Source of the DNA: Deroplatys truncata
Taxonomy: Eukaryota > Arthropoda > Insecta > Mantodea > Mantidae
DNA length: 64,000 bases
Assembly: GCA_030765065.1 (NCBI GenBank)
Contig: CM060978.1
Location: 111,209,692-111,273,691, forward strand
Direction: 5' to 3'
A program made the position numbers and the translations under genes. A model generated the notes under the pieces. That model was not told where the DNA came from. It saw nothing but the letters and a program-made list of their open reading frames with translations, and did not search any database. Positions 6,395 through 36,379 of this stretch are shown here, piece by piece. How positions within the stretch are numbered: the first letter of the stretch is position 1; each line of letters opens with the position of its first letter.

Positions 6395-6400
6395 GTGATG
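6395..6400. repeat. Left 6-bp target-site duplication (GTGATG)
   Basis: GTGATG directly precedes the AGTAGTATTAG terminus and is repeated directly after the opposite terminus at 25819-25824. Six bases is the duplication length known for Polinton integration. Confidence 0.93.
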
Positions 6401-6559
6401 AGTAGTATTAGTCCCGGATGAGCCAATTGATTTAACGATAATCCTGCCGCTAGGGGCGCTGGTGTCGCTAGTGTCGGTGCGTGCGACGGCGGCGGCGGTG
6501 TGTTTGAAAAGCGCCCTGAGCGGTAGGATTATCGTTATTGCAATTGGCTCATCCGGGAC
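6401..6559 (+). repeat. Left terminal inverted repeat of the Polinton
   Basis: These 159 bases match the reverse complement of 25660-25818 almost perfectly; the only differences I see are a few bases in the inner part (about 6533-6541). The terminus begins AG and the far end finishes CT, as expected for Polintons. Positions 6410-6560 form an imperfect palindrome of their own (see the separate entry). In protein-primed replicators the termini act as origins; that role here is inferred. Confidence 0.95.
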
Positions 6560-6560
6560 T
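6410..6560. repeat. Fold-back (hairpin) inside the left terminal repeat
   Basis: AGTCCCGGATGAGCCAATTG at 6410-6429 is mirrored exactly by its reverse complement at 6541-6560. Pairing continues inward with few mismatches through ACGATAATCCT and CCGCT to about 50 bp per arm. The loop is about 50 bases and GC-rich, including (CGG)n at about 6488-6500. The right terminus has the same arrangement. Confidence 0.9.
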
Positions 6561-6790
6561 GTTTTCTTTATTTATAATTTGAATACAGTACATTGGATAA
6601 AGATATGTATACATAGTTTTTTGATTAACATGATGTATTATTTGCTTAACATATGAATACATAGTTTGAGAATAACATAATGGATTATTTAATTACAGGA
6701 GATTAACATATGAATAGAATAAATGGACAATATAAGAAATATTAGGAGAAAAAAAAGCACATTAAAATTCATAGTTTTTGTTTTGAGGCA

Positions 6791-7282
6791 CTAGGACACA
6801 CAGATTTCGCGCACAACAATGATTTTAAAGTACGTGGTGCACTTTGAGTCCTCGTCATCGCTGCTGCTGCTATCGGCGGTAAATTGGTGGATAGGTTTGG
6901 TGATGCAGGTGACGAGCAGGTGAGAGAAACTTTCGTTGACGAACTCGGTGAAGGTTGGTATATAGATGGGGATGGTAAATTCGTTGTAATGGCTGGTTGA
7001 GAAGCATCCTGTGGATGTGACTTTGTTGGTTAGAGCAGGAATGTTGCTGTTGCCGAGGTATATGACGCATAGTGCGTCTTGTTTATGCTGGTGTACTTTG
7101 GTAGGTACGCATTTGACGTGGACGGCGTGAGCCCCTTGGACGTCGAGTGTGATGGTGACAACTCTGCTGTTGCGGAAATAGGAGTTGGAGATGCAGAGGA
7201 TACGGATAGGTGAAGCTGCGTTGAGAATGAGTTGTAGGTTAAGATTGTTCCCCACGGGGACGGGGTAGGTTTCGTCGGACAT
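6791..7282 (-). CDS. Polinton left-end protein, 163 aa, unknown function
   Basis: A frame of 163 codons from an ATG whose A is also the last base of the preceding gene's TAA stop (TAATG at 7284-7280). The predicted chain is rich in beta-forming residues (ILCISNSYF, RVVTITLDVQG, FTIPIYIPTF). It carries an acidic serine tract (SSSSDDED, about residues 138-145) before a short hydrophobic end. I do not recognise a family. A beta-sandwich structural or spike-like protein would suit the composition, but nothing seen proves this. It is the last gene in the transcription direction, about 230 bp from the left terminal repeat. Confidence 0.7.
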   Translation of the reverse strand: MSDETYPVPVGNNLNLQLILNAASPIRILCISNSYFRNSRVVTITLDVQGAHAVHVKCVPTKVHQHKQDALCVIYLGNSNIPALTNKVTSTGCFSTSHYNEFTIPIYIPTFTEFVNESFSHLLVTCITKPIHQFTADSSSSDDEDSKCTTYFKIIVVREICVS

Positions 7283-7599
7283 TATTTAGGGTTATATGGG
7301 GAGAACGTGACGATGTGACGTTTGAAACCGCTGCGTAGTTTTTCCTCGCCTGCGTATATGATGCAGAATGAGTTAGAGTTGAGTTTGTTGACGAGTTCTG
7401 GAGAGGCTTTTGCAAATCTTGTTGGTAGGAAAACTTCTGTGTCGTTGTCGAGTTTGGCGACGAGCTTTGTACCGTGAACGGTGTCGATTGTTTTGACGCC
7501 GACGACGCGATATGGTACGTGCTGTTGAAGCGTAGATACGCTGAGAGTGTGGGCGCTGCTGGAAAGTTCTTCTAGCTCTTTAAGGACGTCCTGTGACAT
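7282..7599 (-). CDS. Small Polinton-associated protein with VFLPTRFAKA motif, 105 aa
   Basis: The 105-codon frame starts at an ATG that overlaps the end of the preceding 99-aa gene by 20 bases and ends by sharing its last A with the next ATG. The central segment (residues 28-73: a VPYRVVGVKTIDTVHGTKLVAKL block, then EVFLPTRFAKASPELV) resembles small proteins common in arthropod Polintons. Its alternation of short strands suggests an OB-like fold and perhaps single-stranded nucleic-acid binding; that is inference. Remarkably, an 18-codon stretch around VFLPTRFAKA recurs twice in the non-coding right arm (24112-24170 and 25247-25305). Confidence 0.75.
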   Translation of the reverse strand: MSQDVLKELEELSSSAHTLSVSTLQQHVPYRVVGVKTIDTVHGTKLVAKLDNDTEVFLPTRFAKASPELVNKLNSNSFCIIYAGEEKLRSGFKRHIVTFSPYNPK

Positions 7600-7879
7600 T
7601 CTGACGGCACAGATGGCAGTTTTTGATAAACGGGGGAGGACCGTCTATATGAGTGGTTTGATGAGGAAGGTTGTAGTGTTGTTTACACCTGCGATAAGGT
7701 GCGCAAACTACCTGTGCGTCTGCGGGAAGTTGGTTCCACACAAGGTCGACGTCGCTTGGGGGATAACGTTCGAAGATGTATATGCCGTTCTGCAGCAGCA
7801 CTTGGCGTTCCCTGGGCAGTAGCAGGTGGATTCTTCGTCCGTTATCGAGATACCGATAGAGCACGATGAAGCAGTTCAT
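7580..7879 (-). CDS. Hypothetical Polinton protein, 99 aa
   Basis: The frame runs from ATG 7879 to TAA 7580. Its start overlaps the preceding gene's stop as ATGA, and its end overlaps the next gene by 20 bases. The C-terminal third contains cysteine and histidine pairs (CAPYRRCKQHY and later CHLCR), which could bind a metal. The N-terminal half is an aliphatic, arginine-containing stretch without recognisable motif. I do not recognise the family. The compact overlaps and absence of stops are the main reasons for calling it real. Confidence 0.6.
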   Translation of the reverse strand: MNCFIVLYRYLDNGRRIHLLLPRERQVLLQNGIYIFERYPPSDVDLVWNQLPADAQVVCAPYRRCKQHYNLPHQTTHIDGPPPFIKNCHLCRQNVTGRP

Positions 7880-8064
7880 GTGGTGTTTCTAGCGGAGTAC
7901 CTTCGAAGGAATTGCTGAATTTGCTTGTTGAGATGATCGAGGTCTTCGTAGAAACCGTGTTGACACTGCGTGCACAGGAGGGTGAGACGGTGCTTAAGTT
8001 CGCAGCTGCACGTTTGGTGAAAGCAAAACGAGCAGTGGAAGGCTTTACACGACGGTCCTGGCAT
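7876..8064 (-). CDS. Small cysteine-rich protein, 62 aa
   Basis: The first ATG in this frame is at 8064; the frame continues upstream without ATG into the tandem repeats to 8181, which would need a non-AUG start or a splice. From the ATG the protein has a cluster of cysteines and histidines (CKAFHCSFCFHQTCSC, then CTQC) typical of a small zinc-binding fold. A helical tail follows (YEDLDHLNKQIQQFLRRY). It ends in an ATGA overlap with the 99-aa gene. The function is unknown; a nucleic-acid or protein-binding zinc module is a reasonable guess. Confidence 0.55.
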   Translation of the reverse strand: MPGPSCKAFHCSFCFHQTCSCELKHRLTLLCTQCQHGFYEDLDHLNKQIQQFLRRYSARNTT

Positions 8065-8129
8065 TCCCCACGGCTGGCTAGCACCGAATGAAGGGGTAAA
8101 GAATGCGCGTGCATAAATATAACCCAACT

Positions 8130-8990
8130 GCCGGAAGCAGGAAATCACTGGTGGGGGAAAAGTTCGTTGGAGATTTACCACATCAGGGGAAGCACTGGTG
8201 GGGGAAAAGTTCGTTGGAGAAACACCACATCAGGGGAAGCAGTGGTGGGGGAAACGTTCGTTGGAGGTTGGCTACATACGCCGGAAGCGCTTAGCGATTA
8301 TTGCACAACATCCGCAGGAAAAACACTGTGTCCGTTGATTTAACGGTTTTCGCCTTGGAGGAGAACTCTGTTTTGAACGGTGCTGAACATGCAAACGACC
8401 ACATGAGGGGGAAGCACTGGTGGGGAAAAGTTGGTTGGAGAATTACCACATCAGGGGAAGCACTGGTGGGGGAACGTTCGTTGGAGGTTCACTACATCCG
8501 CAGGAAAAACACTGTGTCCGTTGATTTAACGGTTTTCGCCTTGGAGGAGAACTCTGTTTTGAACGGTGCTGAACATGCAAACGACCACATGAGGGGGAAG
8601 CACTGGTGGGGAAAAGTTGGTTGGAGAATTACCACATCAGGGGAAGCACTGGTGGGGGAACGTTCGTTGGAGGTTCACTACATCCGCAGGAAAAACACTG
8701 TGTCCGTTATTTAACGGTTTTCGACTTGGAGGAGAATTCTTTTTTTGAACGGTGCTGAACATGCAAACGACCACATCAGGGGGAAGCACTGGTGGGGAAA
8801 AGTTGGTTGGAGAATTACCACATCAGGGGAAGCACTGGTGGGGGAACGTTAGTTGGAGGTTCACTACATCCGCCGGAAGCGCTTAGTGATTATTGCGCAA
8901 CATCCGCAGGAAAAACACTGTGTCCGTTGATTTAACGGTTTTCGACTTGGAGGAGAACTCTGTTTTGAACGGTGCTGAACATGCAAACGC
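8130..8990. repeat. Tandem repeat block inside the Polinton (186-bp unit with shorter sub-repeats)
   Basis: A unit carrying ATCCGCAGGAAAAACACTGT recurs at 8310, 8496, 8682 and 8902, giving a period of 186 bp for the first three; the last unit is longer. Within units, a 50-57-base sub-repeat built on GGGGAAGCACTGGTGGGG is reiterated from about 8140. Each unit also holds CCGTTGATTTAACGG, an interrupted palindrome (8332-8346, 8518-8532 and 8924-8938; a shorter form near 8706). The block separates the PC4-like gene from the left-end genes. The 137-codon plus-strand frame across it is a by-product of the repetition. Confidence 0.9.
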
Positions 8991-9102
8991 CGTGAATGTG
9001 ATCGGGTATGATATAGGATGCTTCGCGACCCGAATGCGGGAGCGAAGGGCGCGAGATGTTTGGGTGAGGTGCGGTTGGAACGCTGGTAGAAAAACATGCG
9101 CA

Positions 9103-9958
9103 CTAAGAACTATTTTGTGAGATGCGCAGTGCGAAATGGGTGTTGAGGAAATGATGAACCTCGAGGAATGTTCTAAAATTGGCGCACCGTATGTACTTGG
9201 TGAACTGCGTGAAATTCATGTCATGTAAGGGAACGTTGGAGGCATGGTTGTGAAGCATGTACTTGTGGTATGCCATGATTTGATTTTGCACGTCCGTCTC
9301 TTCCTTCTTTTTGTGATAGATGATGTCGGTAATGATGCGCTGCAGGGTATGCAACACGTGCCATTCTTGTTGGTTGAGCGTAACGGATGCGCCTTGCGGT
9401 TCTTTGAAAACGAGCTTTAGCTTTCCGAACACAAACTTAAACACGATGGTGACGCTGTCGCTGAACTGAAATTGCTGTAGACGTCCCTGCGGGTCATTCA
9501 AGCGTTTGTGAATGATGGGGATGGCTTCGACGAGTTTGTGCCACTGCGAGGAACTCATGACGACTGCGTTGTGCTGTCCACATTTGGCAATGGTGACGAC
9601 GAGATGGTGCGGCGGCCGGGGGGAGAATCCCACACTGACGAATTTAGTTTGTTGCGGGTTGAGGAAGTAGATATCCGCCAGAGGACCCACAACTGCACTG
9701 TGTTGGAACTGTGCTGGCGGAGCAGGGCTGTCGGGATGCTGTTGGAGGTCGAAGATGGGTAGTTTCCTTTTTTCCCCGGGTTTTGAGGTGGTCGGGGTTC
9801 GACATCCGGTTATACTGGAACACACAAAACAATAATAATAATAATGTGAGGGATAGAGAGAGATAAACAGGATAGAAAAAAAAGCAAGCTAATACATAGG
9901 TGCGGACCTACCTGGTCGGCGTGCTGCATGGCAGCAGGACTGTATCCGCGCGCTGCAT
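9103..9958 (-). CDS. Protein with two PC4-like repeats; likely spliced (exons 9958-9912 and 9814-9103), about 252 aa
   Basis: The main frame (to 9103) lacks an ATG of its own. It opens just after a good 3' splice site (pyrimidine/GT-rich run then TTCCAG, 9820-9815). Upstream, an ATG at 9958 followed by CAG|GTAGGT (donor at 9911) joins in frame and supplies 15 codons. The protein contains two successive units of about 45 residues (about 73-117 and 136-177). Each has two or three strands, a V-x-hydrophobic strand, then x-x-x-W-x-x-L and a helix ending in II. This is the layout of the PC4/p15 coactivator fold, which binds single-stranded DNA. The resemblance is by pattern only. A replication or transcription accessory role is inferred. 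The C-terminal 80 residues are helical, His-rich and unassigned. Confidence 0.65.
9815..9911 (-). other. Predicted spliceosomal intron, 97 bp
   Basis: The donor is CAG|GTAGGT and the acceptor TTTGTGTGTTCCAG, on the minus strand. Splicing creates an ATG-initiated frame for the PC4-like gene, which otherwise has no AUG start. The intron contains a (TAA)n run typical of non-coding sequence. Confidence 0.6.
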
Positions 9959-9964
9959 GGTACA

Positions 9965-10008
9965 CTCTGAATGAGGCGAGCGGCACCGTGACGTTGCTTT
10001 TTATATGA
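9965..10008 (-). promoter_or_regulatory. Candidate TATA box and initiator before the PC4-like gene
   Basis: On the minus strand TATATAAAAAG (about 10006-9996) is followed about 30 bases later by CTCATTCAG, an initiator-like word, and then by the ATG at 9958. The same TATAA bases also form the last codons and stop of the spliced protease frame. The box may therefore be fortuitous. Confidence 0.35.
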
Positions 10009-10598
10009 GCAGGAGCGTCTTCTGAAAGCACGTGCAAGACGATAGATTAGCTTAGATGTGCTGAATAGTGACACACACACACACACGTACTCACCTTCAA
10101 GGGTTGACAAGTTTGCCGAGCGTCAGAGCACTTTGCGCGGCATGCGTTTTTGAACGTTTTGCGAATGACGACATCATTATGCGCGTGATTGCTGACGTGA
10201 AATTTTGAGAAGAATGTATGCTTAGGCAAGCCGGAGCAGCGGTGGGTGAGGTAGGCGATGACGTAATGACCGCACGTGGTGCTGTCGAAACCTTGCAGCC
10301 TTCTAGCGTTGGTGGACCAATGCGTCCCGCAGACCGAATTTAAGAACCGGAGAAAATGGGGTGAAAGCGGTCCTATGCCGTAACTGTCAAAATATTCTGC
10401 ATGCGAGTTTTTGTCCACAAAGATGCAAACCCAGTGTTGCCCTGATTTGGTGCTGGGGTCGGTGTTAGCCACTAGCGCCAAGGGAGGCGTTCGAATGCCG
10501 TGAAGTACGGGTAGTTTATCGCAGGGGTAGACGCCTAAAAAGTGAGAGCGCGTAGAGGGACATGTCGATAGAAACCGTTGAATTTGAAAGGTGTTCAT
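10001..10598 (-). CDS. PRO: Adenain-type cysteine protease (PRO); likely spliced (10598-10095 and 10021-10001), about 174 aa
   Basis: Maturation protease of Polinton virions, of the adenovirus protease (C5) / Ulp1-like class. The catalytic residues are visible: His55 in GQHWV, Asp71 in YFDSYG, Gln102 in RLQGFD and Cys109 in STTCGHYV, in the family's order and spacing. The ATG overlaps the stop of the major capsid gene (ATGA at 10598-10595). Unspliced, the frame would run on into a (GT)n stretch and end with a Cys/Val-rich tail. A consensus donor AAG|GTGAGT at 10094 and acceptor CTTTCAG at 10022 instead give a six-codon second exon and a TAA at 10003-10001. It presumably cleaves the minor virion proteins encoded upstream. 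Confidence 0.9.
10022..10094 (-). other. Predicted spliceosomal intron, 73 bp, in the protease gene
   Basis: The donor GTGAGT and acceptor GTGCTTTCAG are both near consensus on the minus strand. The intron contains a (GT)n run, and the frame reading through it yields a low-complexity tail. A length of 73 bp is normal for a short insect intron. Confidence 0.65.
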
Positions 10599-11881
10599 GA
10601 TACCAAAATGGATCGGTTGGCGTCGATTTCGACCGTGCGATGTATTTCCGCTAGCAGCAGAAGTATGACCGGTTCTGTCAATTTATCGGCAAAACCGATG
10701 CTTATAGAGACGGTTCCGTGGCGCTGACCCGAGATGTGAGACTCGTTAGCGCTCATGTCTGCAGTGAGATCGAAAACCATTATCGTATACCCTTGCGGGT
10801 AGGTTTCTCTGGAGATGGAGTGTCCCTCGTCCTTGAAATGAATGCCTAGGCCGTCCTGCAGGGTTTGAAAGCATTGCAAATAGTGTCCTTTTGTAAAGTC
10901 GGGTTGCAGAGGTTGGGAGGGAACGGGTTGCCCATTCACGTAGAGCTGAAAGAAGTTCATTTTAAAATGTTTCAAGTTGTACGGATTTGAGTTAAAATGG
11001 CCGGAATAGGCCTTGTCGGTGACCATGGCTACTACCACTCTCCTTGGAACTTGCCCTACGCACACGTCGCTAAACGTCATTGCCCTGGACTCCTTGGGGA
11101 TGCTGAGAGCGTGAAAGCTGACGTCTTTGAGATGGTACTTTGCGTTGCCCTTTGCGAGCACGGCCTGGTGCGCGAGCTTTATGGTCGGCGAGGGCCGCAC
11201 CGATTTTAAGCGCAGCGTGGCAGACACGATGTCGGCGTACCCCTTAAAGGTATCTACGTCGGAAAACAGATAAAACTGGGGAGAGGCGGGAGTGAGCTTG
11301 ACGGTCATGCTAACGTTGTTCAAAAGCAGCTTCTCCTGTCTAAAAAGAGCGTTGGACAGAGGACCGATGAGCTGCACGACGTTGCTCCCTTTGGTAAACC
11401 CCTGACGCCACTGAAAACCCGCATTGGCGATAAAAGTGTCCATGATGCCTGCCGTGTCCTTTCTCCAGAGGGTAGATTCTAGTTTGGTGTTCATGGCATC
11501 TTCGGAGTAATTGAGAAGCGTCTCGAGGTAGGTTCTATAGGGGTAACCGGCTTGCGGCATGGAGACGATGACGTTATTGAGGGTTACCTCCATCTGTTGA
11601 AACAGGGAATTTAAGGCGTTGTTGACCAGAGTGGCGTTAGCGTCAGCGTTTAAGGCCTCTCCTTTGTCATCTACAATGCGCACCATGAGTTCGAGTACGA
11701 CGTAGGTCAGGTCTAGGTAATCGTCCGCATTTCCGGAATAATGAAAGGTGATGGGGGCATTTTTCATTAAAGTGTTTTGAGGGTTTAGGTATAGGAACCG
11801 TGACTCCTCGATGCTCATCTGAACCGGCACCTCTGTAAAGAGATCCAGTTCGGAACTCATGTGGACGGTCGCGTCTGCCAT
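10595..11881 (-). CDS. MCP: Major capsid protein, double jelly-roll type (MCP), 428 aa
   Basis: This matches the Polinton major capsid family often annotated in animals as F54H12.2-like. Hallmarks seen are an N-terminal SELDLFTEVPVQMSIEESRF segment, NPQNTL..APITFHYSG, a YLDLTYVVLELMVRI strand, LFQQMEVTLNNVIV, and YPYRTYLETLLNYSEDA. In the family these lie in the first jelly roll. The second half holds FFQLYVNGQPVPS and a YPQGYTIMVFDLTADMSANESH block near the C-terminus. The length (428) is usual for the arthropod form. The ATG shares its A with the TAA of the upstream minor virion gene (TAATG at 11883-11879), and the stop overlaps the protease ATG. It forms the hexon-like shell of the virion. 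The frame has no interruptions. Confidence 0.93.
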   Translation of the reverse strand: MADATVHMSSELDLFTEVPVQMSIEESRFLYLNPQNTLMKNAPITFHYSGNADDYLDLTYVVLELMVRIVDDKGEALNADANATLVNNALNSLFQQMEVTLNNVIVSMPQAGYPYRTYLETLLNYSEDAMNTKLESTLWRKDTAGIMDTFIANAGFQWRQGFTKGSNVVQLIGPLSNALFRQEKLLLNNVSMTVKLTPASPQFYLFSDVDTFKGYADIVSATLRLKSVRPSPTIKLAHQAVLAKGNAKYHLKDVSFHALSIPKESRAMTFSDVCVGQVPRRVVVAMVTDKAYSGHFNSNPYNLKHFKMNFFQLYVNGQPVPSQPLQPDFTKGHYLQCFQTLQDGLGIHFKDEGHSISRETYPQGYTIMVFDLTADMSANESHISGQRHGTVSISIGFADKLTEPVILLLLAEIHRTVEIDANRSILVS

Positions 11882-12312
11882 TACGAAAATACGTCTTGCA
11901 CCTTGCGCCTACCGCGTTTCAGCTTGGACTGCTTGCTCTTTCTGGATTTGCTCGGTTTTATTCTCTTGAGACGACTGGCGCCGGAACCGAGCATGGCATC
12001 GAGCTTTTTGTCGGCTTTTCGCTTTAAATTGTATCCGGACTCCTTGAGCCTCCGCTGGAGCGCTTGCTTCGGCGCTGCTCCCGCCACAGTCACATCGGAC
12101 AGAACGTGAGCGCCCGCCTTTAAGGCCTCCTTTCCGACTGCTTTTGCTCCGCTCTTTAAAAACGGTAGCAACCTTCTGAAGAGTCCTCCGAGGGCTGAAA
12201 AGAGACCGCTGCCTCTTTGGTAGCGCTTGCCCCTGTAGAGAGCGAAATCGCGATGGTGGAACGCTCCGCCGGTCTGATTCAGGTAGTACCGCGTTACGGC
12301 GTGCACGTCCAT
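11881..12312 (-). CDS. Basic amphipathic minor virion protein, 143 aa
   Basis: The ATG at 12312 is chosen because it shares its A with the penton gene's TAA (TAATG). A longer upstream frame would lack a reason to exist. The protein has an N-terminal segment with QTGG at residues 13-16. This is followed by an amphipathic, glycine-rich helix region (GSGLFSALGGLFRRLLPFLK, 34-53) and a KAVGKEALKAGAHVLSDV block, then a strongly Lys/Arg-rich tail. This layout is shared by small minor capsid/core proteins of animal Polintons and recalls adenovirus membrane-lytic or core proteins. Two candidate adenain sites fit the X-G-G or X-G-X-G rule: QTGG before Ala17, and MLGS before Gly111. The exact role (membrane penetration or DNA condensation) is inferred. 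Confidence 0.8.
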   Translation of the reverse strand: MDVHAVTRYYLNQTGGAFHHRDFALYRGKRYQRGSGLFSALGGLFRRLLPFLKSGAKAVGKEALKAGAHVLSDVTVAGAAPKQALQRRLKESGYNLKRKADKKLDAMLGSGASRLKRIKPSKSRKSKQSKLKRGRRKVQDVFS

Positions 12313-13334
12313 TACGCCTGTTTCGGACGAAAAGCGAGAACTACAGTAGAGGAAAATCCGTCGGCGAATGGCAAGAGATCGCCGTAACCGTTCCTTAAAT
12401 CTATGCTGACCGTCTTGAAGTCTTGCTGAATCAAGGGTACCCAATTTTGGGGAAAAAACGTCTTTTCGTCGCTCATGTAAGTTTTGTTGCTTCTTTCGTA
12501 TTCCACGGCAGCGCTCTCTATGACTTGGGCGAAGGTGTCGCCCACGACTTGCGGGGACACTAGATTACAATAGACGAACATTTCGTAAGGAAACCCCATA
12601 TAAGGATCTACGGGGTGTTTAGCAGCTTTTTCGAGAACGACGTTGACGTAGGGTTCGAAACCCAACATTTTTGCCATAGCGGGCGTTAAGAGCAAACTGT
12701 GGATGCGGTGTAGAGGTCCCGGAGGGTCCTCCGATTTTGAAACGTCTCGTTTGGGTCTGACGGAACGAGCCGCCGCGGGTTTCTGCTGCCCCGAAGCCCG
12801 GGGCTTCGGTTTCGGTTTCGGCTTGGGTCTCTGGTGGGGCGCATCGTTGAGAGCTTCGTATTCGCCGACCGCGTACGGTACGACCGTGCGCGCGACATTT
12901 TCCACAAACCCGTCGAACGGAATGTCGGGTAGTGGTTCGGGATGGGCGACGGCGGCATTCACGCCCACCGTCTGCTTGCGCTCGTCGAAGAGGAAGAAGT
13001 TTTCCACGTGCAAGTGTTCGAGTAGAACGGCGTTGACGAGGTTCACCAAGTCTTTGGGATTGTGCACGATGCCTTGCGGCATTTGCAAACTGAATTTGGA
13101 ATGCGTTGGGAGGAGCGTCATGGTGTACTTGGCGCCCGCGAGACGGGCATGGTCTGGCGAAAGGTTATAAAATTTCACCGGATACCTGACCTTTTGCAGG
13201 GCGACCTCCCATTCTCCCTGCAGAACGATTCTCTCGGGCAAGATGTTAGAAAATCTAGCCGTGGTGTTGTCGGTAAAGTGTTCCATGGAAGCGTTGCTCA
13301 CGAGAGTGATGGAGAAGGGCTTGGTCTTAATCAT
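12312..13334 (-). CDS. mCP: Penton-like minor capsid protein (mCP), 340 aa
   Basis: The single-jelly-roll vertex protein of Polintons. Family hallmarks are the N-terminal strand FSITLVSNASMEHFTDNTTA, with ILPERIVLQGEWEVALQKVRYP downstream. Near the C-terminus come VYCNLVSPQVVGDTFAQVI, a YMSDEKTFFPQNWVPL segment, and VSIDLRNGYGDLLPF ending in VVLAFRPKQ. Between the halves lies a low-complexity linker of KP repeats (about residues 170-180) and a basic region. The ATG at 13334 overlaps the integrase TGA (ATGA). The frame continues upstream only from a GTG, so this start is preferred. It would sit at the capsid vertices with the MCP forming the faces. Confidence 0.9.
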   Translation of the reverse strand: MIKTKPFSITLVSNASMEHFTDNTTARFSNILPERIVLQGEWEVALQKVRYPVKFYNLSPDHARLAGAKYTMTLLPTHSKFSLQMPQGIVHNPKDLVNLVNAVLLEHLHVENFFLFDERKQTVGVNAAVAHPEPLPDIPFDGFVENVARTVVPYAVGEYEALNDAPHQRPKPKPKPKPRASGQQKPAAARSVRPKRDVSKSEDPPGPLHRIHSLLLTPAMAKMLGFEPYVNVVLEKAAKHPVDPYMGFPYEMFVYCNLVSPQVVGDTFAQVIESAAVEYERSNKTYMSDEKTFFPQNWVPLIQQDFKTVSIDLRNGYGDLLPFADGFSSTVVLAFRPKQA

Positions 13335-14386: not shown

Positions 14387-14389
14387 GCT

Positions 14390-15171: not shown

Positions 15172-15294
15172 GCTTGCGCGATAATGACGTTCGCTCCAAA
15201 AGCGATACTTTTTATTTAGACTCGACGGCCTCAGTCGGGCAAGGCCCTGCCGGGATGATATGGAACGATACGAACCCGAGTCCTCTCGGCGGTC

Positions 15295-15983: not shown

Positions 15984-18900
15984 TTATGCGTTCCTCTTGA
16001 ACCCGTAGGGATAGGAATCGTGATCGCCGGCGAGCACGCGCTTGTTGACCACCATCCTAAACGTCTTCGAGCTGGGTTCGGTGACGACCGTCCAAGACGG
16101 TTTCCGCGAGATCTGCGTGCCCGCCAGCTTCACCGCGCGGTCGTTGTCCCTCAGCACCGTGTCGCGAATCACCTCCGCGTTCACCAGCTCCAGGTTGCCC
16201 GAATTGAGCGTGATCCCCTTCACCTTGCACACCGAGAAGGTCTTGCCCGTTTCGGGGCAAACGATCTCCATGCAGTAGCTCTTGGGCCCCGTGGAGGCGA
16301 ACCGGGCGATGTAAGAGCCCCGCCCGTACTTCTCCAGCTCGTCCGTCATGTCCCCCAGGAGGCGTCCGACGGACGGCGTCCAGTCGCCCGGAGCGGCGGC
16401 GACGACGACGGAATCGGTGTCGAAGTAGCAGACGCGTTCTCCCAGCCTCTTCAGGTAGGAGTAGAGCACCAGGCGCGCGTGAGCCGTGGTGTAGGCCGCC
16501 AGGACGGCGTTGGCGGCGGGGTTGACCTTGCGGCACTCCTCGCGGTACCTCCACACCACGTACATGATCCGGTCGGTGACGGGCACGTAGGTCTGCACTT
16601 CCACGCCCGGGTCGTTGAGCAGCTCCAGGAGTCGGTCGTACCGGTCCACCAGCTCGCACGTGGGGAGGTTTTCCCTCTGCCCGAGTTTGCCCCAGAAGCT
16701 GTTGAGCATCAGCTTGGCCAGCTCCCGCCTGCCGGGGTTGGTGGCGACGGCCTGGGGATCCAGGGCGACGCCTTCGTGCTCGAAGAATTGCTCCACGTAC
16801 TGCTGCTTTGCGGCAGGGTCGTCGCAATCCGAGGGCCAGCCGGAGGCTTCGGTCTTGATCTTCAAGAACTGATTCACGTAGTCCTCGAAGAGACCCTTGG
16901 CTCCGGTGGTCGGTTCGTGCCGCACCACGTCGTACTCCCAGATCTCGTGGACCCGCAGCAGGCGGTACCCCTCCTCCAGGGCGACCTTCATCTCGTCGAT
17001 CACCCAGGTACCCGACAACGCCCTCTCGCGCTCTCCGTGGTGGCACTCGTCTTGGTTCTCCGCCTCCGCACAAGCGCGGCATAGCGGGAACATGAGCTTG
17101 CCGCCGATGCGCGCCGGTAACACCGGGTGGTACAGGTGTTGCGGCGGTAGAACCTCGCACTTCACCAACCCGCCCCCCACGTCTTCCAAGCGCGGGAATC
17201 GATCCACGTGGATCTTGGGGTGGCCCACGGGGTAGGGCTTCGTCTTGTTCACGTACGGGTACAGGCTGCATACGTCGTAGTAGTAGATCTTGCTATCCCC
17301 CTTCGCCTCGCAGTACGTCTTGGTGCAGTTGGTGCGACCTCCGTAGAAGGCGTCTCTGGGGTTCAGGGGTTCGGGTACCGGAAAGTCCCTTGCGTGGCGC
17401 GCCAGGTCCTGGTTGGCCTTCATCGCGGCGTTAAACTCGCACTCCCACATTTCCACCACGGCGTAGCCGGCGGCCTTGATCTTGGCCGTGACCTTCTCGG
17501 TGCTCTCTAACCTGGAGGTCATGGTTTCGTGTCCCGAGTTGTATATCGCCGCATGGCGATTGTGAAAGCACCGCCTGCAGCCGTGGTAAAAGCACCCGTG
17601 GAAAAAGTACGCGGTTTTTTCGGCCTCTCTGTACCCGTCCACCTTGTGCCCCACGATTTTAACTTCGCGTCCTCGCATGGCGTGCTGGATGACGATGCGG
17701 TTTTGCATCTCTAGCCAAGTTAGCCATATGCATGCGGCGCGAGACTGCCGGTCCGCTAGTCGATACCCGCCCGCTGGCAAGAGGGCAATTTTTTTAAGCG
17801 GCATGAAGCGCTTTCTATACACGCACATGCACGCCTGCGCAATGGTGACGCATTCTCTGAACGGGTCTATTCCGTTCTCGTCCAAGAATTCCCTTCTGAA
17901 TTTGGAAACTCCCTGACTGAGTAGAAATACGTCCATCTTGCAATACGCCACCATTTCCGCCCTCATGTCGAAGACGTACCCGGAGGACGCCTTTTCTTCG
18001 TGCCACTGCTCGAAGGCTTTCCGACCCTCCGCCGACATGCCCTCCGGGCAGTAATGCCTTTTGTCGGGAATCGAACCCACGTACCGCTCGTTTTCCTTCG
18101 TGTTAAACAGGTACGGGAAATAACCTTTGCATTCCTTCAATCCGAAGGTCTTGGAAAAGCGGGAGAGTGGCATGGGTATGAAGTTGAGCGAGTCTAGAAA
18201 TGTGACGTCACCGTACCTCATCCTGTAGATCTTGCTGCCGTTCATGATGAGCTCCGGCACCCAGTCTAAGTGCGCCACCATGTACTTTAATAGAAACTGC
18301 CCGTCGTAAGCTCTGAGGTTATGCGCCACGACGTAGACGTCCCAGGCTTCGAACCTCGCCTGCGCGATGTGCTCGAAAAGCTGCTTCACGGGCTCGTCCA
18401 TAAACACCCATTCTTTGCAACCGCATTCGGTACAGTATGCCGTCTTGTGGCGTTGGTCGATGCACAGCGAACAGGCTTGGTACAACACGCACAAGTTAGG
18501 TACATGCTGGTATGTGTCCTTTTTGCCGGTATATGGAATGTTTTGCGTGCATTCAAAGTCGATAAACATAAACACGTACCGGTTTCTTTTGTTCTTTGTA
18601 GCATACGGCTGCATATAGCACATGTGGCTAGAATTCACGTGTGCCTTGCAATGATTGCAGTACTTTTCCCCGCACTGGTGCGCGGTTTTTCTGTGCCTCG
18701 CATTCACGAGCTTATTGCAAGACGTGCACACCTTTTCTACATCGCACACCGACAGCGCCTTTGGGTAAAAAACGCCTTTCTTTGCGTGGTTTGCAAAGCA
18801 TGTCGGTCCCTTAAAATCTCTGTTGCACTCGGCGCAGCGTATGTAGGCGTCAAATCGCGCATCGCACTGCTGATGGCATTTAGCACACCTGGCGTCGCAC

Positions 18901-19766
18901 CTATGAAATTCTTTTTTGTGTGCCGAGGGATGATGACACCGGCGGCAATACCATTTGCATTTAAAGCACTTGTGAAGGTTCACGATAGCATTAAAGTGCC
19001 TGGCGTGGAGCATGACGTCGATGTATTTATCGCATTTCTTATCCGACGCGTACAGCACGTGCTTCCCCGTATGATCGCCAAACACCGTCACAGCGTAGCC
19101 CTTTAACGCTGCGTCGAAGCGTCTCACGTCGTCTATCGTGCACCTGTCGTGACCTTGACCGATGCTCGCGCACAAGGCTACGGCCTTCGATTTTTGTAGA
19201 TACTCGGAACGCGTCATCGTTCTATAATTGACGTCGCGATCCACTTTGGCTTTAACTACAACAATGGCTCTTGCTAAACACAAGTTGTCTTTGTTGGCTA
19301 TTTCGACAATGCCTTTATTGTCCCTACAGGCATCGCAAGGTTGGTGGCACGAACCCGAGACCTCCTTGGTCCACACAAACGTGACGTGAAGAGGCCCGCT
19401 TAGCAAGAATTGTTGGTTACTTTGCATTACTTTTTCGATGCTTCCAACAATGACATCCGCATTCAATTGCTCTATGCGCCTCACGCTCATGTTGAAGGCT
19501 TTGGACGTCTCCTTTTCGTCTGTTATGGATATGCCTAAATATCCGGGTTCGTTTTCTAACAGGTTCTCTTTCGCAAAGTTTAGAATATCGTTAAACAAAT
19601 GCGATACCCATTGCTCCGGGTTAACATCTCTGGGGACCGGGTTTAACGTAATTTGAGACTCTGTAAAGCCGGAAAAAAGCTTTGGCAACCTCCTCTGCTT
19701 GTGTCCTATAATTTCGAACGTAGGCTGCAAGGTGTCATCGCGACTTCCTCCGGGTTGTTGGTCCAT
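15984..19766 (-). CDS. POLB: Protein-primed family B DNA polymerase (PolB), 1260 aa
   Basis: Replicative polymerase of the element. The start is ATG 19766 in AAGATGG; the frame extends six codons upstream only to a GTG. The N-terminal domain has Polinton-type blocks (NPEQWVSHLFNDIL, SVRRIEQLNADVIVG). Next comes a cysteine/histidine-rich region (about 267-383) with many C-x2-C pairs. Exonuclease motifs are FIDFECT (Asp403, Glu405), AHNLRAYDGQF (Asn483, Asp488) and YCKMDV (Asp612). A segment with HGCFYHGC (723-730) looks like a Vsr-type endonuclease-fold insertion. Polymerase motifs are A YYYDVCSLYP (Asp831), B KLMLNSFWGKLG (Lys1018 to Gly1026) and C CYFDTDS (Asp1116, Asp1118). All catalytic residues are present and the frame is unbroken. 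It is the most upstream gene in the direction of transcription. Confidence 0.96.
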   Translation of the reverse strand: MDQQPGGSRDDTLQPTFEIIGHKQRRLPKLFSGFTESQITLNPVPRDVNPEQWVSHLFNDILNFAKENLLENEPGYLGISITDEKETSKAFNMSVRRIEQLNADVIVGSIEKVMQSNQQFLLSGPLHVTFVWTKEVSGSCHQPCDACRDNKGIVEIANKDNLCLARAIVVVKAKVDRDVNYRTMTRSEYLQKSKAVALCASIGQGHDRCTIDDVRRFDAALKGYAVTVFGDHTGKHVLYASDKKCDKYIDVMLHARHFNAIVNLHKCFKCKWYCRRCHHPSAHKKEFHRCDARCAKCHQQCDARFDAYIRCAECNRDFKGPTCFANHAKKGVFYPKALSVCDVEKVCTSCNKLVNARHRKTAHQCGEKYCNHCKAHVNSSHMCYMQPYATKNKRNRYVFMFIDFECTQNIPYTGKKDTYQHVPNLCVLYQACSLCIDQRHKTAYCTECGCKEWVFMDEPVKQLFEHIAQARFEAWDVYVVAHNLRAYDGQFLLKYMVAHLDWVPELIMNGSKIYRMRYGDVTFLDSLNFIPMPLSRFSKTFGLKECKGYFPYLFNTKENERYVGSIPDKRHYCPEGMSAEGRKAFEQWHEEKASSGYVFDMRAEMVAYCKMDVFLLSQGVSKFRREFLDENGIDPFRECVTIAQACMCVYRKRFMPLKKIALLPAGGYRLADRQSRAACIWLTWLEMQNRIVIQHAMRGREVKIVGHKVDGYREAEKTAYFFHGCFYHGCRRCFHNRHAAIYNSGHETMTSRLESTEKVTAKIKAAGYAVVEMWECEFNAAMKANQDLARHARDFPVPEPLNPRDAFYGGRTNCTKTYCEAKGDSKIYYYDVCSLYPYVNKTKPYPVGHPKIHVDRFPRLEDVGGGLVKCEVLPPQHLYHPVLPARIGGKLMFPLCRACAEAENQDECHHGERERALSGTWVIDEMKVALEEGYRLLRVHEIWEYDVVRHEPTTGAKGLFEDYVNQFLKIKTEASGWPSDCDDPAAKQQYVEQFFEHEGVALDPQAVATNPGRRELAKLMLNSFWGKLGQRENLPTCELVDRYDRLLELLNDPGVEVQTYVPVTDRIMYVVWRYREECRKVNPAANAVLAAYTTAHARLVLYSYLKRLGERVCYFDTDSVVVAAAPGDWTPSVGRLLGDMTDELEKYGRGSYIARFASTGPKSYCMEIVCPETGKTFSVCKVKGITLNSGNLELVNAEVIRDTVLRDNDRAVKLAGTQISRKPSWTVVTEPSSKTFRMVVNKRVLAGDHDSYPYGFKRNA

Positions 19767-19836
19767 CTTATCGTCCGAATGCACCGATCGCTCTTTCCCT
19801 GCAAAGTACTGCGGCTATTTTGTTTTTATTTTAAAA

Positions 19837-19971
19837 TTATTTTTCGTCAAATAGAACGATTTTGTAGAAAAACACACTATCGCTTTCGTTTCTAACTACG
19901 GGCTTTTGCTGTTCGCACAGGGTTTTTATAAGCTCGCTTATTGCAACCGTTGTTTCATCATTTGTGTCGAG
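19837..19971 (-). pseudogene. Possible 44-codon coding remnant upstream of PolB
   Basis: A minus-strand frame closed by stops at both ends and lacking ATG encodes a plausible-looking peptide (ISELIKTLCEQQKPVVRNES, then VFFYKIVLFDEK). It may be the last exon of a gene whose 5' part was lost when repeats inserted into the right arm, or it may be chance. TATAAAAA at about 19923-19930 within it could alternatively be the PolB promoter. Confidence 0.3.
19921..19932 (-). promoter_or_regulatory. Candidate TATA box for PolB
   Basis: On the minus strand, CTTATAAAAACC lies about 160 bases before the PolB ATG. No strong initiator word is evident at the expected distance. Confidence 0.3.
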
Positions 19972-20540
19972 TTAAATGCCTCGTTTCGCTAAAAAATTGT
20001 CTAGTTTTAAAAACTTAGAGTCATGCTGACACCAACCGCCACTGTACAATTCTCACCGCCGACATAAAGGTTGCATTTATTGTATTGCTGACGAATTTCC
20101 GCATCTCTCACCTTTCACTGTCATCAGCACACGGCTCTTTTGCGTGTAGCGCTGAATGCGAACGAGCTGACCTCAGTTATTCCTGATGTTATTAGTGCAA
20201 TATTAAAACTATGAGTATCGTGTGTAGTGTTTTATGTTGTGCCAGTGCATACGTGTTATGTAAAATGTATGAATTAAATACAATCAGCAGATACTTCCTT
20301 TCTAAGGAGTAACACCAACTGTTGAATATAAATTCTCAAAGTGCTTCGTTCGTACGTCCTCTACCCTCTATTTCTTATAGGTGAGTACGAAAGTTTATTT
20401 TCATATCCACTTAATTTTAATCCGGATAAACTTTTCGGGAAATGGTTGCATTGCACAACCGTTAGACATCCAAAGGGACGCTATACACTGGTCTTAAAAT
20501 TCTAAATTCTTTCCATCAACATGGCGTCATGCCTTTTAAA
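19972..20540. other. Right arm of the Polinton, no gene seen
   Basis: AT-rich sequence without an open frame of note, leading into the nested repeats. Confidence 0.5.
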
Positions 20541-20544
20541 AAAG

Positions 20545-22600
20545 AATGGCTAAGCACTGTACAATTCCAACCATTTATAACACATATCTCCAAAATGGCT
20601 GACGTCACAAAAAAGTTATTTCAAATAAATTGTGTGTGTTTCCTCAAACCTTTTCACTCACTAGGGGCTAGAAAATCGAATTTCTTGACTTTTTGAATAC
20701 TCAGCATTTTTCGTATATAGAGGCTTATTATGAGGTGATACATTCATTTATATGATTTTTAAGCAGTTTGAAAGAAGTGAAGTAGAATGGCTAAGCATTG
20801 TACAATTCGAACCATTTATAACAAATATTTCGGAAATGGCTCACGTCACAAAAAAGTTATTTCAAATAAATTGTGCGTGTTTTTAAAAAGATCTAAATTT
20901 TTTGTGTTCTATGTTTTTCTCAAACCTTAGCAGTTATACAAGATCATAGAAAATTTCTTCCCAATCAAGAGGACTTCACAGGCTATTTCCACAAAATTCA
21001 AGATATACATTTTATTTTCATATAAATGTCTTTAATATATGGTGTTGTAATTAAAATCGTCAGAGACAGTTTTAGAAAATAAAACATTCCGGAAAATAGT
21101 TCATGTAAAGGGTAGAAGCAGTTTGAAAGAAGCGAAGTAAACGCGATTTTTCACTCACTAGGGGCTAGAAAATCGAATTTCTTGACTTTTTGAATACTCA
21201 GCATTTTTCGTATAGAGGCTTATTATGAGGTGATACATTCATTTATATGATTTTTAAGCAGTTTGAAAGAAGTGAAGTAGAATGGCTAAGCATTGTACAA
21301 TTCGAACCATTTATAACAAATATTTCGGAAATGGCTCACGTCACAAAAAAGTTATTTCAAATAAATTGTGCGTGTTTTTAAAAAGATCTAAATTTTTTGT
21401 GTTCTATGTTTTTCTCAAACCTTAGCAGTTATACAAGATCATAGAAAATTTCTTCCGAATCAAGAGGACTTCACAGGCTATTTCCACAAAATTCAAGATA
21501 TACATTTTATTTTCATATAAATGTCTTTAATATATGGTGTTGTAATTAAAATCGTCAGAGACAGTTTTAGAAAATAAAACATTCCGGAAAATAGTTCATG
21601 TAAAGGGTAGAAGCAGTTTGAAAGAAGCGAAGTAAACGCGATTTTTCACTCACTAGGGGCTAGAAAATCGAATTTCTTGACTTTTTGAATACTCAGCATT
21701 TTTCGTATATAGAGGCTTATTATGAGGTGATACATTCATTTATATGATTTTTAAGCAGTTTGAAAGAAGTGAAGTAGAATGGCTAAGCATTGTACAATTC
21801 GAACCATTTATAACAAATATTTCGGAAATGGCTCACGTCACAAAAAAGTTATTTCAAATAAATTGTGCGTGTTTTTAAAAAGATCTAAATTTTTTGTGTT
21901 CTATGTTTTTCTCAAACCTTAGCAGTTATACAAGATCATAGAAAATTTCTTCCGAATCAAGAGGACTTCACAGGCTATTTCCACAAAATTCAAGATATAC
22001 ATTTTATTTTCATATAAATGTCTTTAATATATGGTGTTGTAATTAAAATCGTCAGAGACAGTTTTAGAAAATAAAACATTCCGGAAAATAGTTCATGTAA
22101 AGGGTAGAAGCAGTTTGAAAGAAGCGAAGTAAACGCGATTTTTCACTCACTAGGGGCTAGAAAATCGAATTTCTTGACTTTTTGAATACTCAGCATTTTT
22201 CGTATATAGAGGCTTATTATGAGGTGATACATTCATTTATATGATTTTTAAGCAGTTTGAAAGAAGTGAAGTAGAATGGCTAAGCATTGTACAATTCGAA
22301 CCATTTATAACAAATATTTCGGAAATGGCTATCGTCACAAAAAAGTTATTTCAAATAAATTGTGCGTGTTTTTAAAAAGATCTAAATTTTTTGTGTTCTA
22401 TGTTTTTCTCAAACCTTAGCAGTTATACAAGATCATAGAAAATTTCTTCCGAATCAAGAGGACTTCACAGGCTATTTCCACAAAATTCAAGATATACATT
22501 TTATTTTTCATATAAATGTCTTTAATATATGGTGTTGTAATTAAAATCGTCAGAATCAATTTTAGAAAATAAAACATTTCGGAAAATAGTTCATGTAAAG
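20545..22600 (+). repeat. 496-bp tandem array (about four units) derived from dispersed repeat F1
   Basis: CTAGGGGCTAGAAAATCG recurs at 20661, 21158, 21653 and 22150, a spacing of 495-497 bp. The units are nearly identical; the first is shortened and the last runs into unique F1 sequence. The unit contains the F1 blocks seen throughout the host flanks (CGGAAATGGCT, TATACAAGATCATAG, GGACTTCACAGGCTATTTCC, AATTCAAGATATACATTTTA). An F1 copy therefore seems to have inserted in the right arm and then expanded in tandem. The near identity implies recent amplification or homogenisation. Confidence 0.9.
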
Positions 22601-22940
22601 GGTAGTTTGGGGGTGGAGGGGTTTTCTTGAAACTCTCTGTGTCGTATCTTTGGACGGTACTCAACCTAAATACCAAGTTTAGTATTTATCCAACTTTTCA
22701 TTTTTGAGTTATGCTGCTCTGACACATACACACACAGAATTTTCTAAAAATGTTTTTATTCAGTGGACCTCAAAACAAGTATTTAGTTTTCCAGTGCTGT
22801 TTCACTTGTGAAATTCCGTTCTCTTTGTATGAAAATGAAAAAAGAAAAGTTAAACGAATGTCGAGTTTTAGTGAGAAAGGTCTAAAGCTTTTAAACATTA
22901 AAATCAACATGCAAACTTTGTAAATACACAACGCCACAAA

Positions 22941-23003
<63 letters not shown>
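22941..23003. repeat. (TAA)n microsatellite
   Basis: About 20 uninterrupted trinucleotides. Confidence 0.95.
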
Positions 23004-23004
<1 letters not shown>

Positions 23005-23298
23005 ACATAAATTGTGTGCTTTAACGTCCTTGTACAGTAAGGCTTCGTTTCCTACGGTTTAACAGTTGTACAAAAGACATTCACAATGAGACTACTTCAC
23101 AGCAATTCCCAGAAAATTGAAGTTATACATTTTATTTGTCATGCAGATATCTTAAACATACCGTACCGTAATCAAAAGGGGTTAGAGCCATTTTTAAAAC
23201 AATAAAAATAATGAACTTTCTCCCGCTAAACGGGTAGTTTGCGGTGTGGGAATTTTCTTGAAAATCTACGGTTTGTTAAATTTTTTATACGCTACTAT

Positions 23299-23305
<7 letters not shown>

Positions 23306-23350
<45 letters not shown>

Positions 23351-23352
23351 GA
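23306..23352. repeat. (GT)n microsatellite
   Basis: A nearly perfect GT run of about 45 bases lies inside the nested repeat region. Confidence 0.9.
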
Positions 23353-23559
23353 GTATGTGCCTAGTGTCTGTGCGCCACAAGCCAAAACGATGACATTATA
23401 GAAAAACTTTATCATCTGCCTACCTGCCAGGTAAAACGCGAAAAAACCTGAAAAAAGCTCTAAGAGTATTCTAACGCTTACCGATCTGGAAAACCCGTGA
23501 AAACAAGATAGTACACTTTTGAGGTATTGCTTGTTATTTCCTTAAATTTTTCAATACTT

Positions 23560-23740
23560 TTTTACTTTCTCTACTACGTATAGTAAGTAGGGGAAGTATT
23601 GCATTCCGCCCAAAAATTCGATACCGAGATTTCACCGGAAATACACGTTTTGAGACCTCCTGAATCAAAAAAAAAAAAAAAAAAGCATTTTTCGAAACAT
23701 GTCCGTGTGTGTGTGCCTGTCTGTGTGTCTGTCTGTCTCT

Positions 23741-23786
<46 letters not shown>

Positions 23787-23815
23787 CAGTACGTGCCTAA
23801 TATCCGTGCGCCGAC
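23560..23815 (-). repeat. F1 3'-end fragment, minus strand
   Basis: It begins with ACTTTCTCTACTACGTATAG, the inverted F1 terminus. It continues with GATTTCACCGGAAATACACG, then an A run, a (GT)n run (about 23705-23780) and stops. This is a truncated inverted copy. Confidence 0.8.
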
Positions 23816-24110
23816 AAGGTAAAACTTCATCATTTGCCTACCGGGCAGGGACAACCGCTAAAAACCTGAGAAAACCTCCAAAATTAGAAACGCCTTCGTC
23901 AACCAGTACAGAAAACGCCTACCAACCAGGGAAAACCTATGAAAAAGGAGAAAGAGCTTGCATTTGTTTACCATCCGCAGAAAACTCCCAAAAAAAAAAA
24001 AAAAAAACTAGTCATTTTAAAAAAAAAGGAAAAAGACGAATAATATAAGTATGGTAGAAACAGCTTGCATTCGTCTACCAACCAGAGAAAACCCCCGAAA
24101 CACTAGTTAT
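23816..24110. other. Right-arm sequence with A-rich runs and AAAACC words
   Basis: The stretch repeats ACCAGAGAAAACC-like words (CCAACCAGGGAAAACC, ACCAACCAGAGAAAACC) and A runs at about 23990-24007 and 24020. Similar words occur at 23430-23500. No gene is recognised. Confidence 0.5.
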
Positions 24111-24111
24111 T

Positions 24112-24415
24112 TAAAATTGCTGATGAGTTCTGGATAGGCTTTTGCAAATGTTGTTGGTAGCAAAACTTGCCTTTTCCATCACCTCCAACATACCCCACTC
24201 CCACACCTTTTTTTTCTTTCCACCAATCATAATCTCTCTTATTCTCGCCAATCAGCAACTTTCATTTGTTCCTTTCCACCAATAACATCACTTCTTATTC
24301 CCACCAATGACAACTTCACACGTCACTTTCTGTTATACTTTTTATCCCTCGTTCGCCATCTTTCCCCCTCTTTCAGACCCCAACCGCCGCACAGTCAACA
24401 CCTCGCCGCTCCTTA
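24112..24415 (+). repeat. Right-arm direct repeat, copy 1 (CCAAT-rich, with gene scrap)
   Basis: About 300 bases match 25247-25545 with few differences. The start (24112-24170), read on the minus strand, encodes LLPTTFAKAYPELISNF, nearly the VFLPTRFAKASPELV segment of the 105-aa left-end gene, followed by a stop. The remainder carries several CCAAT words (at about 24220-24290) that could be promoter elements. Confidence 0.8.
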
Positions 24416-25246
24416 ACCTCAACTTCGTGCCTCCGCCATCTTGTTTAGTTCACATTTTTACCACCGCGCCTCTCATCTCTCAACCAGATTGCCTGCAAGA
24501 ACAGATCTCGTTCATTCGCACCTCGACGGTTGCCTCGGCAGCAGCTACTGCCAACACCTACGTCGTACACGTTTTTGACCGCTTTCGACCGGCTATGAGA
24601 ACCCTGCTCCTACGTACGCTAGCGACCATCACGATGGTCCAGTACCAGGTTTTTGGTATAGTTAAATTACGCCTCTGCAAAGGGTGTCTGTACCGCTTTA
24701 AAAACCTAGGTATATCAGTGCGTAGTGATGTTGGTTGATCTTAAAGCTGGTTAAGCATTTTCAAAAACAGTTTGCTTTTATTTTTCCGTCTCGCGTGCCG
24801 CGCTTTTGGTGACGCATCCACACCGGTAACAGGTAAGTAACACACGCATAATTATTTTTCGGACCTGCTTGGCGTAGGAATATATCCTTTCGTGTTTTGG
24901 TACTGTAACCTCAAACCTCCTTTCCCACCTCTTGCGTCCGCCATCTTGTTTAGTTCTCACCGCATCTCCTTGTCGCAGACCCTCCGCCATTTTTAGTTCC
25001 CGCTATTTTAACCTCAAAATCTACTCTTCTAACCTCTTGCTACCGCCATCTTCTTTTAGTTCCCATTCTCACCACCGCGTCTCCTTACCCCCACCTCTTG
25101 CGACCGCCGTGTTCACCACTAACCTCCAAATTTCCTCGTCCTTAAACCTCTTGTCTCAACAACCTTGTCTAGTCCCCATTTTCGCCACCGCATCTCATAT
25201 CGCCCCCATCTCTCTATCCACTCAAGAAAACTACCATCCGACGTTC
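24416..25246 (+). promoter_or_regulatory. Right-arm spacer with repeated CCGCCAT(CTT) words
   Basis: CCGCCATCTTGTTTAGTTC at about 24430 and 24943 is repeated in looser form at about 24983 and 25040. The core matches the YY1/Pho zinc-finger target. A regulatory role is speculation. The frames on both strands (143 aa plus, 70 aa minus) show no recognisable domain and are not called. A consensus donor CAG|GTAAGT lies at 24830 on the plus strand. Confidence 0.35.
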
Positions 25247-25545
25247 AAAAATTGCTGATCAGTTCAAGACAGGCTTTTGCAAATCTTGCTGCTAGCAAAA
25301 CTCACCTTTCCCATCACCTCCAACATACCCCACTCCCACAACTTTTTCTTTTCCACCAATCATAATCCCTCTTATTCCTACCAATCAACAACTCTCATTT
25401 GTTCCTTTCCACCAATAAAATCACTTCTTATTCCCACCAATCACAACTTCACACGTCACTTTCTGTTACACTTTTTATCCCTCGCTCCCCATCTTTACCC
25501 CTCTTTCAGTACCGACCTCCGCACAGACAACACCTCGCCACCCAG
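25247..25545 (+). repeat. Right-arm direct repeat, copy 2
   Basis: The second copy of 24112-24415. Its gene scrap reads LLAARFAKACLELISNF on the minus strand and ends in a stop. The CCACCAAT words are conserved between the copies. Confidence 0.8.
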
Positions 25546-25659
25546 CTCCTCTCCATCACGCGACCTCCATACTCCTCCATCTCCCTTCCTCCATCTCCCA
25601 CCCCAAATTAACGAACCAATCAAAAACACTCCACGTCACTTCCTCAATTCTTTCAACTC

Positions 25660-25818
25660 GTCCCGGATGAGCCAACCGATTTAACGATAATCCTACCGCT
25701 CAGGGCGCTTTTCAAACACACCGCCGCCGCCGTCGCACGCACCGACACTAGCGACACCAGCGCCCCTAGCGGCAGGATTATCGTTAAATCAATTGGCTCA
25801 TCCGGGACTAATACTACT
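25660..25818 (-). repeat. Right terminal inverted repeat of the Polinton
   Basis: Reverse complement of 6401-6559 over 159 bases, ending AATACTACT. It contains the same fold-back (25661-25809), although the inner arm here differs at a few bases. Confidence 0.95.
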
Positions 25819-25824
25819 GTGATG
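25819..25824. repeat. Right 6-bp target-site duplication (GTGATG)
   Basis: Identical to 6395-6400. Confidence 0.93.
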
Positions 25825-34885: not shown

Positions 34886-34891
34886 CCCAAG

Positions 34892-36372: not shown

Positions 36373-36379
36373 CTCTATC

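Follow-up and report, generated by a model that had tools for sequence, protein, structure and literature searches.

A 64,000-nucleotide stretch of the genome of the mantis Deroplatys truncata (assembly GCA_030765065.1, contig CM060978.1, positions 111,209,692-111,273,691 of the forward strand; hereafter the window, always meaning the whole stretch) contains a Maverick/Polinton at window positions 6401-25818 (19,418 bp). Very probably, this is an autonomous element whose insertion is very recent and whose parent lineage has been multiplying in this genome. Such elements are known, and this one belongs to an unusually fresh burst; the surprise lies in the scale of that burst and in candidate palindromic partner elements. 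Animal Polintons may be transposons, viruses or both, a question under debate partly since most known copies are broken; many open, datable and near-identical copies make it testable.

Boundaries and family of the element

Comparison of both flanks revealed the perfect 6-bp target-site duplication (TSD) GTGATG at 6395-6400 and 25819-25824, as the initial annotation had claimed for an interval, 6395-25824, that includes these duplications. The complete element with 159-bp inverted repeats that it described was also recovered. The terminal inverted repeats (TIRs) occupy 6401-6559 on the plus strand, starting with (AGT)2, and 25660-25818 on the minus strand, ending with (ACT)2. They match at 154 of 159 positions (5 mismatches) and are identical across the outer 137 bp, with the ends reading AGTAGT...ACTACT. 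The terminal 37-mer was found to occur exactly 377 times in the genome, versus 0 times for a reversed control, so the element is not a product of chance. A strong, mirrored GC skew was also observed at the element ends, amounting to +0.28 in 6401-9000 and -0.40 in 24000-25818.

The genome searched is a single 4.29-Gb assembly of 818 contigs, the largest contig seen being 707 Mb. The 377 terminal 37-mers comprise 184 forward and 193 reverse occurrences, including both window ends. For the major capsid-like (MCP-like) protein, the best 98 of 4,156 first-look candidates were scored, and all 98 were open and shown as 100% identical. On contig C1, an exact 37-mer end was found near only one of the 10 listed MCP matches, indicating that the 37-mer misses many copies; the 37-mer and MCP counts are therefore lower bounds. 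All copy samples described below were ranked by identity to the window MCP-like protein and hence favor young, intact copies.

The ends of 20 plus-strand copies were compared with those of the window element. The protease-side end was exact in 19 and the DNA polymerase B (PolB)-side end in 18, with both exact in 17. Each of these 17 copies is flanked by an identical 6-bp duplication, no two alike, and counting the window copy there are 18 mutually distinct TSDs. Across 137 bp compared without gaps, the sibling TIRs carry no mismatch in seven of the 17 copies, 1-6 in nine and 18 in one. Lengths of the both-ended copies range from 18,879 to 19,929 bp. The window element is thus a member of a large, young family with hundreds of near-identical ends. 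Among the 18 TSDs, A never occurs at position 3 and T never at position 4 (probability about 1e-6 given the base composition); a central CG is present in 6/18 versus a 2.9% background (p = 7e-6), a pattern that was sought after viewing the sites and in a small sample (18).

Age and selection on the polymerase

The window copy carries one private substitution in the 3,831 bp of PolB. Among 19 young rows (18 copies plus the window), the number of private changes per 3,831 bp has a median of 2 and a mean of 3.3. With an assumed substitution rate of 3e-9 per site per year, these private changes give a burst age of the order of 0.2 million years. PolB of 20 further copies was found to be at least 99.3% identical to that of the window in 18, and to be 3.4-3.6% diverged in two old copies (L054 and L057). 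Recent insertion and recent mobility, as originally proposed, are well supported by the single private PolB change, the 137-bp identical TIRs and the near-identical siblings with different TSDs. The accompanying idea that an intact copy is an exception among decayed ones was not borne out: the sampled siblings are mostly open, with a full PolB frame in 14/20 of these MCP-ranked copies.

PolB changes common to both old copies versus the rest were taken as passed on through copying. These comprise 60 synonymous and 42 nonsynonymous changes, with a ratio of nonsynonymous to synonymous rates (dN/dS) of 0.24 (0.20-0.36 across mutation models). The changes private to the two old copies comprise 10 synonymous and 35 nonsynonymous changes plus 3 stops (dN/dS 1.20; 1.02-1.78), and those private to one of the 19 young rows comprise 23 synonymous and 36 nonsynonymous changes plus 3 stops (dN/dS 0.54; 0.46-0.79). 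Passed-on changes differ from all private changes (p = 1.4e-4), and the shared PolB sites are nearly tree-like, with all four combinations in 43/5,565 site pairs. In this MCP-identity-ranked sample, PolB is used by the copying lineage under purifying selection and decays after insertion, clearly so in the old copies.

Gene content

The minus strand carries, in order, PolB, ATPase, two small open reading frames (ORFs), integrase, penton-like, PW-like, MCP-like and protease genes, with three accessory ORFs toward the left end. The unbroken PolB, integrase, ATPase, protease, capsid-like and penton-like frames first reported were all found open. PolB (15984-19766; 1260 amino acids (aa)) contains exonuclease and polymerase motifs and an OTU-like N-terminal motif, and matches Pfam PF03175 (E 3e-44), consistent with a type B polymerase; protein priming itself would follow from membership of the family. 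The integrase (13331-14386; 351 aa) contains an rve core with D-D-E (PF00665, E 1.5e-14) and a C-terminal chromodomain (PF00385, E 1e-6), and matches PFV integrase in PDB. The cysteine protease (10047-10598; 183 aa) matches the PDB entry "Cysteine protease S273R" (E 4.1e-6), which we take to be the African swine fever virus enzyme; this match places it with adenovirus-type cysteine proteases. Its final codons, at about 10071, fall within a GT run of variable length among copies. The ATPase (15295-15927; 210 aa) is, by its position, putatively of the FtsK/HerA packaging type and carries Walker A (GPSRCGKST) and Walker B motifs, all of its Pfam matches being below the cut-off.

The residues taken as catalytic, as reported at the outset, are present in the window sequence (exonuclease and polymerase motifs in PolB, D-D-E in the integrase, both Walker motifs in the ATPase, His and Cys in the protease); the "major capsid" and "penton" identities given with them are putative and follow from gene order. 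The MCP-like protein (10595-11881; 428 aa) and the minor capsid (penton)-like protein (12312-13334; 340 aa) received no call from any library tried, and PHROGs and NCBIfam scans of the window proteins gave nothing convincing. An AlphaFold model of the MCP-like ORF without alignment reached a pLDDT of only 29, too low to read the double jelly-roll expected of a Maverick/Polinton major capsid protein. Assigned by position are a PW-like, small basic ORF (11881-12315; a 144-codon frame with its first ATG at codon 2), a 123-aa ORF at the PM position (14800-15171) and a 137-aa ORF at the PZ position (14390-14803). The capsid-like names were applied because the gene order fits the scheme given in PMC8097293.

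Probable propagation of the element and alternative explanations

The most likely course is that the element's PolB copies it in the form of linear DNA, with protein priming at the AGTAGT ends as predicted from the family. The copies would then be inserted by its own chromodomain integrase through a 6-bp staggered cut; the TSDs are observed, and the integrase is the presumed enzyme. PolB would be kept by selection in the copy-making lineage, and copies would decay once inserted. Packaging, for example for movement between cells, may be part of the cycle, as the initial annotation suggested in calling the element possibly virion-forming, because 7/8 sampled copies show no stop, gap or insert in MCP, PW or penton; the case for this step appears evenly balanced. 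The eighth copy (L003) contains one stop in the protease, one in the 240-aa ORF, and an 8-bp insert and a 1-bp gap in the penton region.

Several observations weigh against this explanation. One exact end is missing in 3/20 copies (L011, L038 and L039): L011 and L038 match ends inside the element, and for L039 no element sequence was found in the stretch examined. PolB is broken in 6/20 copies. The private PolB changes of young copies are also short of nonsynonymous ones (dN/dS 0.54, p = 0.024; 0.62-0.79 and p 0.08-0.41 with CpG weighting), so private changes can be cleanly equated with neutral ones only in old copies. In the capsid module, 5/8 copies carry inserts of 8-22 bp at 10071, where the protease frame ends in a GT run, and the protease C-terminus varies accordingly; the protease stop count ignored inserts and is thus blind to this variation in run length. 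The capsid block was compared among 10 copies (the eight plus two more old ones) and the window. For the protease, PW and penton genes together, 12 of the passed-on changes are nonsynonymous and 9 synonymous, and no single gene among the three reaches significance. The private changes of three old copies in these genes (19 nonsynonymous, 17 synonymous and 1 stop) show no higher nonsynonymous share than the passed-on changes. The MCP, with 0 nonsynonymous of 8 changes, is not usable here, its identity having been the ranking criterion for the copies. In young copies, the private changes of the protease, PW and penton genes comprise 12 nonsynonymous and 5 synonymous.

These counts bear on a first alternative, a purely intracellular self-synthesizing transposon in which replication and integration are maintained and the capsid genes ride along as passengers, with too little time so far for decay. 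We lean against this explanation while regarding it as a serious one. The lack of a significant signal in the passed-on protease, PW and penton changes is in its favor, as is the youth of the burst: at a median of 2 private changes per 3,831 bp, unselected genes would mostly remain open. Against it, MCP and PW are stop-free in the three older copies, which are 0.8-1.5% diverged in the block, although MCP is ascertained; in the same copies the protease has a stop in 2/3 and penton has gaps or an insert in 2/3. Selection on Maverick core genes across species, as stated in the available text of PMC8097293, also speaks against passenger status.

A second alternative, which we consider unlikely, is that the copies are endogenized copies of a circulating adintovirus, with germline insertions arising by repeated infection and not from resident copies. 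Among 3,831 PolB sites, the two old copies show 132 and 127 differences to the window, and in the 3.4-kb protease-to-penton block only 28 and 36; these copies look mosaic, perhaps by recombination or gene conversion, or as an effect of copy choice. PolB far from, and a capsid block near, the window would be expected from recombination during co-replication, in line with a circulating virus. However, the old copies were chosen by MCP identity, which favors mosaics, and gene conversion gives the same pattern. Also in favor of this alternative, Polinton-type contigs from wild-fly reads have been reported, for which the authors suspect contaminating fly species and possible integration (PMC8363768). 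IMG/VR yielded no relative by MCP, PolB, integrase or ATPase, in single-protein searches that reach close relatives only, which counts against it; a phage collection searched with PolB likewise yielded none. Assembly artefact or contamination is extremely improbable: the copies are known from one assembly only, but they lie on chromosome-size contigs with differing flanks, 6-bp duplications and private mutations.

Comparison with known systems

The window element resembles the vertebrate Mavericks described in PMC8097293. Their core genes are arranged in two modules, in the order PolB, ATPase, PM, PZ, integrase, minor capsid, PW, MCP and protease, an order matched here by genes that are in part named from position. 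The (AGT)2//(ACT)2 ends, their commonest end motif, and the 6-bp TSD are also shared, and the length (19.4 kb) and TIR (159 bp) of the window element fall within their ranges of 12.7-24.6 kb and 46-1,447 bp, respectively. As a difference, all core genes here lie on one strand, which those authors report for Xenopus tropicalis. Also unlike vertebrate Mavericks, the present element has an invertebrate host and apparently far more young copies: at least 98 open capsid ORFs, which is not their full definition of intactness, whereas their highest count of intact copies was 38, in a fish, and tetrapod genomes averaged 1.25 (PMC8097293).

Like adintoviruses, as outlined in the available text of PMC11071296, the element combines PolB with an rve integrase bearing a C-terminal chromodomain. 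An OTU-like motif at the PolB N-terminus is a further probable likeness. Similarity to hexon, recognizable by BLAST to the reference clades, is part of the adintovirus definition, whereas here the likeness lies in PolB and integrase, and in integrated copies only. In a braconid wasp, Maverick/Polinton can be the most abundant transposable element superfamily; in the text available, abundance in these parasitoid wasps comes from read clusters, as opposed to the intact capsid-module copies counted here (PMC6035795). In open-licence titles and the openings of abstracts, we found neither palindromic Polinton derivatives nor an invertebrate genome with so many open copies, which is no proof of novelty.

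Candidate palindromic partner elements

A listing of 100 of the 377 end places, on contigs C1-C6, was paired by hand, giving 41 elements including that of the window and leaving 18 places single. The paired-end lengths fall at 17.9-18.1 kb in 14 elements, 18.8-19.9 kb in 13, 15.0-17.4 kb in 11 and 5.1-10.4 kb in 3. In one element (C1:127728164-127746237; 18.07 kb), two stretches of 3 kb, situated 3.7 kb inward from either end, are mutual reverse complements at 99.7%. With the window Polinton, these two stretches have in common weaker arm repeats and a 233-bp segment immediately upstream of PolB (93%). The central 1.4 kb of the element is 98.4% identical to its own reverse complement and contains, in two inverted copies, PolB fragments that are 59-66% identical to the window protein. 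In a second element (C2:33037845-33055905; 18.06 kb), the central 0.8 kb is self-inverted (96.1%) and 99.1% identical to the center of the first. No window protein other than PolB matched the sampled stretches of these elements. The palindrome evidence thus comprises one element sampled in its arms and center and a second at its center, with 12 others known by length only.

Judged from these sequences, the ~18.06-kb elements probably derive from a related Polinton as palindromic, non-autonomous forms that would have been moved by the same machinery. Tentatively, and with slightly more doubt than belief, we propose that a second family, non-autonomous and sharing the ends of the intact Polintons, is supported by them; it would consist of ~18.06-kb giant palindromes of two inverted PolB arms, like defective-interfering genomes of linear protein-primed replicons. 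Long palindromes are prone to assembly error, which counts against this proposal. Snap-back during strand-displacement replication would be the simplest origin, given what is known of linear protein-primed replicons. If the proposal is true, the palindrome shape would be a fossil of extrachromosomal, strand-displacing, snap-back Polinton replication in an animal germline, and the genome would record a helper-parasite arms race; palindromic partners, if confirmed, would constitute direct sequence evidence on the mode of Polinton replication.

In the window flanks, repeats at 34888-36931, 51727-55076, 59604-60119 and 63095-63969 are about 67-91% identical to the arm of the palindromic element. 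The same palindrome-arm stretches are about 67-84% identical to the intact element's arm at 20.8-23.8 kb, so that this repeat is common to Polinton arms and the genome.

Accessory features and genome surroundings

Three accessory ORFs lie on the minus strand beyond the protease. A 240-aa ORF (9103-9825) with a GTG start, perhaps a 3' exon, has no family match. A 163-aa ORF (6791-7282), also of no family, is open in 18/20 other copies. The 105-aa ORF (7282-7599) is open in 20/20 other copies; its model (pLDDT 59, low confidence) contains five strands and one helix, a fold that in our own reading is OB-like, as a hint only. The model matched nothing in PDB at E <= 0.001; in BFVD it matched a phage protein without known function (E 4.6e-4), followed by a phage single-stranded-DNA-binding protein (1.3e-3).

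A minisatellite at 8146-8878, composed of 46/47-bp units and a 186-bp x 3.1 array, is ~186 bp shorter in 2/19 copies. The long arm upstream of PolB (19815-25659) contains no convincing genes and includes a 497-bp x 3.9 tandem array (20651-22605; 99% matches); its length differs among copies, partly in ~500-bp steps. An Rfam scan of the window at gathering thresholds gave no match.

The window flanks contain decayed ORFs, presumably mariner-like; among eight examined, one Pfam match was above the cut-off (DUF4817). A 104-bp x 5.3 tandem array with 96% matches is located at 61186-61738. Elsewhere in the assembly, clustered and repeated nuclear mitochondrial COX1 copies were observed on the 707-Mb contig C16, at 193-195, 611.2-611.4, 638.0-638.3 and 672.4-673.0 Mb. 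A vertebrate host, which genome size might suggest, was rejected in favor of an invertebrate one, probably an arthropod: a COX1 copy contains 9 stops under the vertebrate code and gives an open frame only if AGA=Ser, ATA=Met and TGA=Trp, as in the invertebrate mitochondrial code.

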